Assembly: GCA_017547315.1 (NCBI GenBank)
Contig: JAFYQA010000202.1
Location: 1 to 6,498, forward strand
Length of the DNA: 6,498 nucleotides
Source: Roseburia sp.
Lineage (GTDB): Bacteria; Bacillota_A; Clostridia; Lachnospirales; Lachnospiraceae
Reading direction: 5' to 3'
Position 1 is the stretch's first letter; the number at the start of each line of letters is the position of its first letter. The position numbers and the translations under genes were made by a program. The notes beneath the pieces were generated by a model, which was not told the origin of the DNA, made no database searches, and saw nothing but the letters and a program-made list of their open reading frames with translations. Below are positions 4,144-6,498 of the stretch, one piece after another.

Positions 4144-4278
4144 ATGACAGAGAGCGGATTACTTATTTTCTTAGGATGTATCATTTTATTATGTATCGTT
4201 GTGGTAGTAGCTGCGGTAGTTTCTTCCGTATCTGGTGCAGCAGCAGCGATTGTAGATGATGAAGACGGCGAGGAATAA
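4144..4278 (+). CDS. Small acidic single-pass membrane protein, 44 aa, unknown function
   Basis: ATG at 4144 opens a 44-codon frame ending in TAA at 4276-4278. AGGAG at 4131-4135 with an 8-base spacer and a dedicated upstream promoter support a real gene. Residues 5-26 (from GLLIFLGCIILL through VVVVAAVV) form a strong transmembrane helix; a small-residue stretch SSVSGAAAAIV follows, and the tail is DDEDGEE. There is no Lys or Arg at all: net charge about -7, which is unusual for a membrane protein and leaves its topology hard to predict by the positive-inside rule. Two cysteines (12 and 17) lie in the helix. I do not recognise the family. It lies between pyk and the valS T-box promoter with no terminator of its own, so its transcript should end at the T-box terminator or continue into valS. 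It might be a membrane regulator, a subunit of a complex, or a toxin-like peptide; nothing here decides. Confidence 0.75.
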   Translation: MTESGLLIFLGCIILLCIVVVVAAVVSSVSGAAAAIVDDEDGEE

Positions 4279-4312: not shown

Positions 4313-4428
4313 AAGTGGAAGAAAAGTAGTTAATTAAAAGGTTGTGAGAAAGAGGAGTACACATATACTCTTTACAGAGAAGGATATCCATCGGCTGAAA
4401 GGTATCCCAGAGAACAGGTATGTGGAAG

Positions 4429-4431
4429 GTA
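4429..4431 (+). other. T-box specifier codon GUA (valine)
   Basis: Aligning this stem I by eye with the well-known glyQS T-box pattern (GAA-N-codon-purine, then a U-rich strand ending UUGA) puts GTA at the specifier position: GAA-G-GTA-G-CTTTTGA. GUA codes for valine and should pair with the UAC anticodon of tRNA-Val, agreeing with the downstream valyl-tRNA synthetase gene. A second GTA at 4418-4420 lies in the paired CACATA/TATGTG region and is not the specifier. Confidence 0.85.
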
Positions 4432-4566
4432 GCTTTTGAACTGCTTCGCCGAACGGCAGGTAGGGTATGTTTTGTACCAGTGACCAGCTTAGTAAGAGAA
4501 GACGTGGGGTTCACGTTATAGAACCACTGACTAACACATAAGTGTTGTTCAGGCATGAGTGATAAA

Positions 4567-4597
4567 CAAAGGTGGTACCGCGTTCATACGCCCTTTG
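4567..4597 (+). promoter_or_regulatory. T-box antiterminator with UGGU tRNA-binding bulge
   Basis: Helix A1 is CAAAGG (4567-4572) with CCTTTG (4592-4597). The seven-base bulge TGGTACC spans 4573-4579. Helix A2 is GCG (4580-4582) with CGC (4589-4591), closed by a six-base loop. The bulge bases UGGU (4573-4576) pair with a tRNA 3' end ACCA, so the discriminator base read is A, as in bacterial tRNA-Val. The 3' strand (4590-4597) is shared with the terminator stem, so the two folds are mutually exclusive. Confidence 0.93.
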
Positions 4598-4631
4598 CAA
4601 GGAATGAATTTCTTTGCAAAGGGCTTTTTTT
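4590..4631 (+). terminator. T-box intrinsic (rho-independent) terminator
   Basis: GCCCTTTGCAA (4590-4600) pairs perfectly with TTGCAAAGGGC (4614-4624). The stem extends by a G-U and three more pairs to 15 bp (4590-4604 with 4610-4624), with the five-base loop TGAAT. Seven T residues follow at 4625-4631. Default termination here stops transcription when tRNA-Val is charged. It is also the only strong terminator downstream of pyk and the small membrane protein gene. Confidence 0.96.
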
Positions 4632-4637
4632 GCGTGA

Positions 4638-4763
4638 ATAAGCAGAGGAAGATAGAACTGGATAAGCAGCTTGAAAGCTTGCTTACAAAGATGTTTATCC
4701 AGTTCTATCTGACGAGCAACGCGAGTTTTGGAATTTGTTTTACAAATTCTGAAACCTGCTTAT
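4638..4763 (+). repeat. Unexplained three-way-junction inverted-repeat element in the valS leader
   Basis: An outer stem ATAAGCAG (4638-4645) / CTGCTTAT (4756-4763) closes two arms. Arm 1 is a perfect 16-bp stem (4650-4665 with 4695-4710) whose 29-base loop can form an alternative inner hairpin (AAGC.AGCT / AGCTTGCTT, TGAA loop). Arm 2 spans 4725-4755: GTTTTGGAATTTGT pairs with ACAAATTCTGAAAC over 14 bp with two wobbles and a TTT loop. Arm 2 abuts the outer stem with no unpaired base. The junction strand 4711-4724 is GC-richer (GACGAGCAACGCGA). No T-run follows any arm, so it is not a second terminator. It may be a structured leader RNA element or a MITE/REP-like intergenic repeat. The pairings are seen directly; function is unknown. 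Confidence 0.6.
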
Positions 4764-4792
4764 GAGAGCAAAGAAATGTTTATGAAAGCAAA
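4760..4792 (+). repeat. Imperfect 13-base direct repeat TTATGARAGCAAA, 20-base period
   Basis: TTATGAGAGCAAA (4760-4772) recurs as TTATGAAAGCAAA (4780-4792), 12 of 13 identical and offset by 20 bases. The first copy overlaps the right end of the outer stem of the three-way-junction element. A spacing of about two helical turns is compatible with protein binding to DNA, but a local duplication at the element edge is equally possible. The remaining leader to valS (4793-4831) shows nothing further. Confidence 0.5.
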
Positions 4793-4845
4793 TGAATAGT
4801 TACCTTATAAAAAGATTATGATTAGGATAAGAAGGAGAGAGAATT

Positions 4846-6498
4846 ATGTGCAACGAATGTAAAGAACTTGCAAAGACCTACGATCCGAAAGGGATTGAAG
4901 ACCGACTTTACAAAAAATGGGAAGACAATGGTTATTTTCATGCAGAAGTAGACCGCAGTAAAAAACCATTCACCATCGTGATGCCTCCACCAAATATTAC
5001 AGGACAGCTTCACATGGGTCATGCATTAGATAACACCATGCAGGATATTTTAATCCGTTATAAGAGAATGCAGGGTTACAATGCATTATGGCAGCCAGGT
5101 ACGGACCATGCTTCTATTGCAACAGAAGTTAAGGTTATCGAGGCATTAAAGGCACAGGGAATCGATAAGGCTGATTTAGGCCGTGAAGGTTTCTTAGAGA
5201 AATGCTGGGACTGGAAAGAAGAATATGGTAACAGAATTATCAACCAGTTAAAGAAACTTGGTTCTTCTGCAGATTGGAAGAGAGAACGTTTCACAATGGA
5301 TCAGGGATGTTCTGATGCTGTATTAGAAGTATTTATTAAATTATACGAAAAAGGACTTATCTACAAAGGATCTCGTATCGTAAACTGGTGTCCAGTTTGT
5401 AAGACATCCATCTCTGATGCTGAGGTAGAGCATGAAGAACAGGATGGTTTCTTCTGGCATATCAACTATCCAGTAGTTGGAGAAGAAGGCAGATTCGTAG
5501 AAATCGCTACAACACGTCCAGAAACATTATTCGGTGATACAGCTGTTGCTGTTAATCCGGAAGATGACAGATATAAAGACTTAATCGGCAAAATGCTTGA
5601 ACTTCCAACAACAGGTCGTCAGATTCCAGTAATCGCTGACCACTATGTTGATAAGGAATTTGGTACAGGCTGCGTTAAGATTACACCGGCACATGACCCT
5701 AACGACTTTGAAGTTGGTAAACGTCATGGTTTAGAAGAAATCGTTGTAATCGGCGATGATGCTATCATGAACAAGCTTGCTGGTAAATACGAAGGCATGG
5801 ACCGCTATGAATGTAGAAAAGCATTAGTAGCAGATTTAGAAGCAGCAGGTCTTTTAGTAAAAGTTGAGCCACACTCACACAACGTAGGTACACATGACCG
5901 TTGTGGCACAACTGTAGAACCAATGATTAAACAGCAGTGGTTCGTTAAGATGGATGATTTAATCAAACCAGCCGTTGAAGGCGTTAAAAATGGTGACATC
6001 CAGTTACTTCCAAAACGTATGGAAAAAACATACTTCAACTGGACAGACAATATTCGTGACTGGTGTATTTCACGTCAGTTATGGTGGGGACACAGAATCC
6101 CAGCTTACTACTGTGATGAATGTGGCGAAATGGTTGTTGCAAAAGAACATCCAGGAAAATGTCCAAAATGTGGCTCTACACATATGCAGCAGGACCCAGA
6201 CACATTAGATACATGGTTCTCATCAGCATTATGGCCATTCTCAACACTTGGCTGGCCAAACAATACAGAAGATTTGGATTACTTCTATCCAAACGATGTA
6301 TTAGTAACTGGTTACGATATCATCTTCTTCTGGGTAATCCGTATGATTTTCTCTGGTTACGAACAGATGGGTAAAAAACCATTCCACACCGTATTATTCC
6401 ACGGTTTGGTTCGTGACTCACAGGGACGCAAGATGAGTAAATCACTTGGTAACGGTATCGACCCACTTGAAGTAATCGATAAATATGGTGCAGACGCA
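4846..6498 (+). CDS. valS: Valyl-tRNA synthetase, N-terminal 551 residues (partial, open at the 3' edge)
   Basis: Class Ia aminoacyl-tRNA synthetase that charges tRNA-Val with valine. The frame is open through the window end; complete enzymes have about 880 residues, so roughly the last third (tRNA-binding anticodon domain and coiled-coil arm) is missing. Visible motifs: [15 protein letters not shown] with HMGH at 56-59; TDHASIATE at 86-94, distinguishing ValRS from IleRS/LeuRS; a CP1 editing domain opening with [15 protein letters not shown] (from 222), which clears Thr-tRNA-Val; GTHDRCGT further on; zinc-ribbon cysteines C423, C426, C439, C442; [15 protein letters not shown]; and KMSKS at 529-533. 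A further CPVC lies at 182-185. The start has AGGAG at 4833-4837 with an 8-base spacer; the protein begins with an unusual CxxC (C2, C5). Expression is controlled by the upstream valine T-box. Confidence 0.97.

Follow-up and report, generated by a model that had tools for sequence, protein, structure and literature searches.

In the 6,498-nucleotide stretch of Roseburia sp. DNA analyzed here (the window), a large base-paired element lies between the intrinsic terminator of a T-box leader and the gene downstream, which, following the initial annotation, we take to be valS. This locus raises the question of what such an element is, and what it might do at a position that RNA polymerase reaches only past the terminator. 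The initial annotation had offered two answers, a new structured RNA of the valS leader acting after the T-box or a MITE/REP-like repeat that had landed at this site.

Position and fold of the element

The features of the leader are collected in Table 1. All stems described in the initial annotation (the outer 8-bp stem, the long arm, the 14-bp arm and the TTGC/GCAA pairs) were found where it had placed them, and the location between T-box terminator and valS is upheld by the coordinates of the hairpin, the T-run and the ATG. The outer stem consists of ATAAGCAG (4638-4645) and CTGCTTAT (4756-4763), the outermost pairs are TTGC (4630-4633) and GCAA (4768-4771), and the valS start codon follows 74 nt past the end of the element. 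Judged from their translations, the genes in the window are presumably engB-like, nicotinate phosphoribosyltransferase-like, pyruvate kinase and valS. A short ORF noted by eye between pyruvate kinase and the T-box (4144-4278; 44 aa, MTESGLLIFLGC...DDEDGEE) perhaps encodes a small membrane peptide.

Table 1. Coordinates of the T-box leader, the element and valS in the window
Feature	Position	Strand	Evidence and remarks
T-box leader (RF00230) upstream of valS	4335..4598	+	cmscan 91.1 bits, E 1.9e-20; just under the cut-off of 93
T-box intrinsic terminator	4590..4631	+	inverted repeat and sequence; hairpin 4590-4604/4610-4624, T-run 4625-4631
Whole element, flush with the T-run	4630..4771	+	covariance model R2, 123.4 bits (R2 contains this copy)
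RF01699 match inside the element	4641-4760		33.9 bits
Outer stem P1, 5' strand	4630..4645	+	partner 4756-4771; 4634-4637 appear eroded in the window copy
Long arm P2 with CUUG loop 4678-4681	4650..4710	+	folding, inverted repeat; arm length and loop conserved
Conserved junction GACGAGCAACGCGAG, probable mini-hairpin GAGC-AAC-GCGA at 4714-4724	4711..4725	+	conserved columns; aligned to UGAGC..GCGA of RF01699
14-bp arm P4	4725..4755 (4725-4738/4742-4755)	+	fold; covariation helix 4 in A4
P1, 3' strand	4756..4771	+	its TGCTTATGAGAGCAA is also present in L001, which is without the remaining element
valS, runs off the window	4846..6498	+	ATG 4846; SD AAGGAG 4832-4837

The segment 4625-4780 folds with -64.1 kcal/mol compared with -31.9 +/- 4.0 kcal/mol for 200 dinucleotide shuffles (z -8.0), none of which was as good. 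The initial annotation had proposed covariation as a test, and the outcome it named as fatal, homologues lacking compensatory changes, did not occur: RNAalifold, applied to six copies aligned without structure, found two-sided changes at 21/47 pairs. In A4, an alignment of 15 copies, such changes occur at 36/47 pairs vs 24.1 +/- 2.4 in shuffled alignments (0/500 as high), with a covariation score of 0.596 vs 0.193 and 89.1% paired cells vs 67.7% (28 to 45% in slid controls), and in A5, with 95 rows, the score is 0.707 vs 0.196 and pairing 87.1% vs 57.3%, both alignments having been fitted to the model structure and leaning towards it. Inverted DNA repeats could also covary; against this stands an excess of G-U over A-C cells on the sense strand (261 vs 114), a count biased by the fitting of model and alignment to that strand.

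The conserved details lie in the junction, in the loop of P2 and in its length. The junction segment 4711-4725 probably forms, as read from the aligned copies, a mini-hairpin GAGC-AAC-GCGA with tandem G.A pairs, which would bring the element nearer to a four-way junction. The loop of this GAGC-NNN-GCGA hairpin varies (AAC, GAA, GAAA and others). Copies that follow rplL or precede triosephosphate isomerase have GCGC-AAC-GCG(C/U) instead, suggesting that Watson-Crick pairs replace the tandem G.A pairs. By contrast, the argument for an RNA role that the initial annotation had drawn from possible G.A pairs in the GTGA/GAGA loop of P1 fails. The matching A4 columns (5-189 to 8-186) hold standard pairs in 10, 10, 13 and 12 of the 15 copies; the loop in the window copy therefore looks like erosion, and a functional G.A internal loop in P1 was rejected.

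The P2 loop reads CUUG in 75/92 homologues. Among 82 copies with CUUG, CCUG or CUCG, the 5' arm is 26 nt long in 38, and 67/82 have a 3' arm of 27 nt (48 copies) or 29 nt (19 copies), the arm sequence being free. A tightly set arm of ~26 bp is what might be expected of an endonuclease processing site, probably for RNase III, that parts a leader or an upstream cistron from the gene; we consider this explanation improbable, as a dsRNA substrate would not need the conserved junction and the CUUG loop. These same elements, GACGAGCAACGCGAG or GACGAGCGAAGCGA in the junction and CUUG in the loop at near-fixed spacing, could instead mark a binding site for a trans-acting protein or for RNA polymerase, as in a regulon or a put-like antitermination element, to which we also give little weight for reasons that lie in the placement of the copies.

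Relationship to Clostridiales-1 and distribution

At the gathering cut-off, the window contains no match to RF01699 (Clostridiales-1). In a relaxed Rfam scan, however, this family matches the element at an E of 1.5e-5 with a score below the cut-off of 48 bits (Table 1), and related copies score 37.5 (L119), 44.6 (L166), 46.2 (L191) and 51.7 bits (L222), the last being a terminator-flush copy with a long third helix that exceeds the cut-off and bridges both types. The helix layout also agrees, the CUUG-loop arm and the UGAGC..GCGA segment aligning to the model. The element is a divergent RF01699 relative, neither wholly new nor private to valS, with a variant of a fold already catalogued in Rfam; we hold both the structure and the family relation to be nearly certain. 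The published table row for Clostridiales-1 reads "y, n, n, Clostridiales, human gut" (PMC2864571).

Blastn searches of 19 related genomes, a comparison suggested in the initial annotation, revealed dispersed copies (best E 1e-27, 80% identity, in G001), so that the absence of further copies, which it had named as speaking against its proposal, was not observed. A covariance model built from 6 copies (R1) matched in 19/62 genus genomes (E 1e-3), and one built from 15 copies (R2) in 32/397 family genomes (E 1e-7) and in 6/291 class genomes (E 1e-6), three of which were already known from earlier searches; in searches over more than 40 genomes 55, 8, 11 or 13 candidates per genome were scored, and the copy numbers are therefore lower bounds. 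Eight carrier genomes hold 37, 10, 9, 7, 5, 4, 4 and 2 R2 matches at E 1e-5, the 37 in G273 including copies with canonical ends. R2 gave 95 matches on 98 sources, which became 92 after L190, L152 and L217 were dropped as duplicates, and together with 21 from G273 these make up the 113 non-duplicate copies considered below. Judged by the named loci, the carriers are Lachnospiraceae. In phage and plasmid collections, the element had no blastn match at E 1.

valS leaders in relatives

Among species representatives, the best ValS match is that of Roseburia sp. RGIG7456 (L001; 99% identity), the leader of which is without the element and keeps TGCTTATGAGAGCAA after its T-run. This remnant may be a deletion scar or a target; because it equals the 3' strand of the element, loss in L001 is a little likelier than gain in the window, as far as a single pair can tell. 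Among 80 related ValS loci, four of which (L010, L044, L049, L077) lie on contigs that begin at most 170 nt from the valS match, only L051 has an R2 match (E 0.05 or better) in the valS leader, again after the T-box terminator, and the other matches (L001, L013) lie outside that leader. A valS-specific leader RNA is therefore rejected. The proposal of a new structured valS leader RNA after the T-box stood with regard to sense orientation, flush position and covariation, but not with regard to novelty, given the RF01699 relative, or to valS.

The surroundings of this site vary in other ways. In L006, L008, L052, L002 and L066, other large hairpins or repeats occupy the gap between T-box terminator and valS, as if the spot tolerates or attracts inserts. 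Identity between L001 and the window is 82-87% upstream and 94.7% over window positions 4757-6498, from the 3' end of the element onward, a step that a recombination joint close to the element could explain. Two other structured elements occupy positions 3135-3450 of L001, between nicotinate phosphoribosyltransferase and pyruvate kinase; one of them has GTAACTATTCAGAGC ends and lies on the minus strand, and neither is present in the window.

Placement at terminators, promoters and stop codons

By their 5' edge, the 113 copies comprise 36 that adjoin a terminator T-run (class T), 29 that adjoin a -10 box (class P), 21 that adjoin a stop codon (class S), 11 with other terminal repeats (TAACTATTCAG-type ends) and 16 in no class, these automatic labels erring for L140, L144 (both after rplL) and the second tandem copy of L235, which are counted under P, and for L132 (ZTP riboswitch), missed as T owing to a bulge. 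At 2027 random positions drawn from the same loci, coding DNA included, the counts were T 15, P 122 and S 40 (0.7, 6.0 and 2.0%). The 5' edge is flush with an upstream functional unit, be it an attenuator terminator, a -10 promoter or a stop codon, far above chance.

Each class has its own features. The window copy and seven full copies (L118-L123, L129) lie immediately 3' of an intrinsic terminator. Class P has an exact TATAAT in 21/28 and a TGn extension in 19/28, and with such extended -10 boxes P1 would begin near +1; among canonical RF01699 loci, described below, 20/30 were called P with an exact TATAAT in 1/21, mostly because their own TGAT end makes the hexamer. Directly past the stop codon of what is presumably rplL, a variant with AGCGGA(T/C)TGAGAA and GCGCAACGCG is found (L135, L138, L140, L144), with the L10 leader upstream in L135, L138 and L140. 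Placement between rplL and rpoB was not upheld, the ORFs after the rplL-adjacent copies being others (L135, L144).

This placement bears on the two explanations raised by the conserved details. Stop-codon copies between genes, for instance before triosephosphate isomerase (L142), an ETF subunit (L180) and an ATP synthase subunit (L153), are where an RNase III site would be useful, but the copies at promoter +1 have nothing upstream to remove. Likewise, the copies occupy the points at which polymerase begins transcription, gets past an attenuator or moves into the next cistron, as a binding site might, but the downstream genes are unrelated and presence is patchy.

Regulators upstream and genes downstream

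A same-strand regulator recognized by Rfam ends at most 100 nt upstream of 17/36 class T copies. Fifteen of these regulators are T-boxes (window, L133, L158 (as L122), L160, L161, L162, L169, L171, L175, L194, L202, L214, L235, L238, L245), one is a cobalamin (L130) and one a TPP riboswitch (L168). The T-box cut-off of 93 bits is reached by 6/15, and all 15 have E <=1.5e-6, including the weakest (L238; 44 bits, E 1.5e-6), which is cut by the contig end. In addition, ldcC RNA (RF02440, typed sRNA in Rfam) lies 271 nt upstream of L149 and 228 nt upstream of L131, and a T-box-like core was recognized by eye in L137 and L151, for which the Rfam scan was run at the gathering cut-off only. No regulator was seen at 15/36 class T copies, of which L186 fell outside the scan; for L150 and L155 the scan used the cut-off or else short flanks (as L129 and L123), the latter giving a weak FuFi-1 match for L129. 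Among copies outside class T, L132 lies behind a ZTP riboswitch, and L134 behind a SAM riboswitch with no intervening terminator. When 13 loci were scanned, copies were found downstream of a cobalamin riboswitch, a T-box, a ZTP riboswitch and ldcC RNA, and across 60 loci scanned at E 0.01, terminators regulated by a T-box or riboswitch made up 13/25 of the element-flush terminators vs 1/91 of the others (Fisher p 1.2e-9).

For the 102 copies without canonical ends, the next gene, called by a simple longest-ORF script, is sense in 74, antisense in 11 and not called in 17. A sense ORF lies downstream of 83/92 copies and is absent in 9/92. Sixty of the 83 were tested and 54 carry a Pfam family, among them two aminoacyl-tRNA synthetases, anthranilate synthase, pyruvate formate-lyase, gyrase B and SecA; no pathway is common to these Pfam-typed genes. 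Other synthetases among the downstream genes, which we take from their translations to be thrS, tyrS and pheS, were also seen. The element does not appear to be its own sensor or terminator, i.e. a riboswitch or T-box expression platform: a complete T-box with terminator lies upstream, and the downstream genes are unrelated. Window-type elements also occur just upstream of a tRNA gene (L164 1411-1635) and upstream of RNase P RNA, rnpB (L191 983-1635), and at these two copies mRNA stability is not the point.

Mobility of canonical and window-type copies

RF01699 is found above its cut-off in 87/200 family genomes, with at least 13 matches in 20 of those. Thirty canonical loci (L256-L285), among the best-scoring, mostly have the left end TGATRYYAGGGTCAAAAG; many also carry its inverted counterpart, CCCCAACATCA, on the right, and directly repeated 5-mers (TTTTA, TAGTA and TTACA, for example) flank them on both sides. 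Automatic calling recovered 13/30, including L268, for which the right end is doubtful; for the duplication test, 17/30 with the right end as expected were kept by eye and the 13 with a missing or misplaced right end dropped beforehand, and in this set flanking repeats of at least 5 nt occur at 15/17 vs 6.0 shuffled. The next genes show no orientation bias (15 sense, 11 antisense, 4 not called). The inverted ends and 5-bp target duplications show that the Rfam "sRNA" Clostridiales-1 rides in a high-copy MITE.

Window-type copies behave differently. Flanking repeats are not in excess in class T (3/37 vs 1.6 shuffled) or class P (0/28 vs 2.3). They are in excess in class S (6/21 vs 2.3, p about 0.003), and some S copies may thus be plain insertions. 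The window copy does have terminal inverted repeats, namely the P1 strands TTGCGTGAATAAGCAG and CTGCTTATGAGAGCAA with a 4-nt mismatch block. For 27/59 copies the nearest neighbour comes from the same genome (2.4 expected), a likeness that fits spread by duplication, and tandem copies were seen among the matches listed. A Y1 transposase (PF01797) is encoded in 1/8 carrier genomes, with no R2 match in the 3351 bases (3.4 kb) around that gene, leaving mobilisation of the RAYT/REP type unsupported. Hence the second proposal of the initial annotation, a MITE/REP-like repeat, holds for the kinship to the MITE-borne Clostridiales-1 and for the dispersed copies, but T and P copies are without target-duplication excess and the REP part is unsupported.

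These data could be read as those of a functionless selfish MITE-like repeat that inserts in or beside T-runs, -10 boxes and stop codons, where only harmless insertions survive. Such a repeat would explain the many copies per genome, their patchiness in orthologous leaders, their within-genome similarity and tandem arrangement, the class S repeats and the canonical MITEs with their ends and duplications. It would not explain the lack of flanking repeats in T and P, the rarity of a Y1 transposase apart from any element is no help to it, and insertion preference alone predicts none of the sense bias, the preference for regulated terminators or that for extended -10 boxes. We consider it an unlikely account.

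Discussion

Based on these data, we suggest that the element probably has some RNA-level role in cis. As to which role, our tentative proposal, held with slightly less than even confidence and with a mechanism that we infer, is that a dispersed element was exapted as a leader module and now defines or shields the 5' end of the read-through mRNA. In this model, uncharged tRNA-Val would let RNA polymerase pass the valS terminator, and the element would be transcribed only then, folding behind the passing polymerase. Once RNase Y or J had removed the T-box leader, as happens in Bacillus, the closed junction at P1 would either stop RNase J from degrading the RNA 5'-to-3' or define the processed end, giving a stable read-through message. 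In each of classes T, P and S, transcription past a boundary would reach the module before anything else: P1 would form the physical 5' end of transcripts begun at promoters, and past attenuators and stop codons the 5' end would arise after an upstream cut.

Published precedents exist. In Bacillus, leaders that contain T-boxes or riboswitches are cleaved by RNases Y and J (PMC3542257). Once its leader has been cleaved, the thrS mRNA is stabilised through a 5' hairpin (PMC3386247), and RNase J1 is stopped by the compact fold of a viral RNA (PMC5760640). We favor a 5'-boundary role because the module follows a boundary in all three classes and because of these precedents for leader cleavage and for the RNase J1 block. 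An exonuclease block by the element itself, argued from analogy, is more doubtful. Equally speculative is the fuller version in which a portable 5' boundary RNA, derived from or sister to the MITE-borne RNA, halts 5'-to-3' decay so that genes whose transcription passes the attenuator give long-lived mRNA. In this fuller version, Lachnospiraceae would have placed such a portable RNA behind T-boxes, riboswitches, promoters and stop codons as a bacterial counterpart of viral xrRNA. We infer that the module spread as a mobile-type element and was retained where the mRNA of the next gene gains a structured 5' boundary.

Several observations count against a leader role. The element is dispensable, being present in 1/80 valS leaders and missing from that of the nearest relative (ValS 99%); 15/36 T copies are without a seen regulator, 16/113 copies are unclassed and 11/85 classifiable next genes are antisense; and the canonical relatives are MITEs, the copies are alike within genomes and 9/92 are without a sense ORF.

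With Clostridiales-1, the window copy shares the CUUG-loop arm, the UGAGC..GCGA segment and the helix order, but it has a shortened third helix, no TGAT..ATCA ends and no 5-bp duplication, and window-type copies are sense-oriented and boundary-locked, whereas canonical copies are MITEs. Pneumococcal BOX and other bacterial MITEs (PMC10969869) are similarly modular structured intergenic repeats that may enter mRNAs, and potential T-box motifs in BOX and the terminator-like SPRITE are mentioned there; likened by description rather than by sequence, window-type copies differ in following T-boxes and riboswitches and directly adjoining the terminators of these regulators. Mobile attenuators and exapted BIMEs (PMC2965389) are also repeat-derived elements in leaders; however, they are attenuators themselves, while the element sits after the attenuator. 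Viral exoribonuclease-resistant RNAs, of which a fold blocks RNase J1 (PMC5760640), are compact junction RNAs too; the hypothesis here is one of similar working and claims no kinship, and the ring pseudoknot is not shown in the element. Among the matches listed in the open-access literature, we found no description of Clostridiales-1/RF01699 as a MITE, of its boundary-locked placement or of a tie to regulated terminators.

Thus, Clostridiales-1, typed in Rfam as an sRNA gene, can be viewed in two ways that are open to testing: its canonical form as an RNA borne by a MITE, and the form found in the window as a leader module locked to boundaries. If the leader role is true, T-box and riboswitch regulation in these gut bacteria would have an extra post-terminator layer, repeatedly supplied by a mobile-type element.
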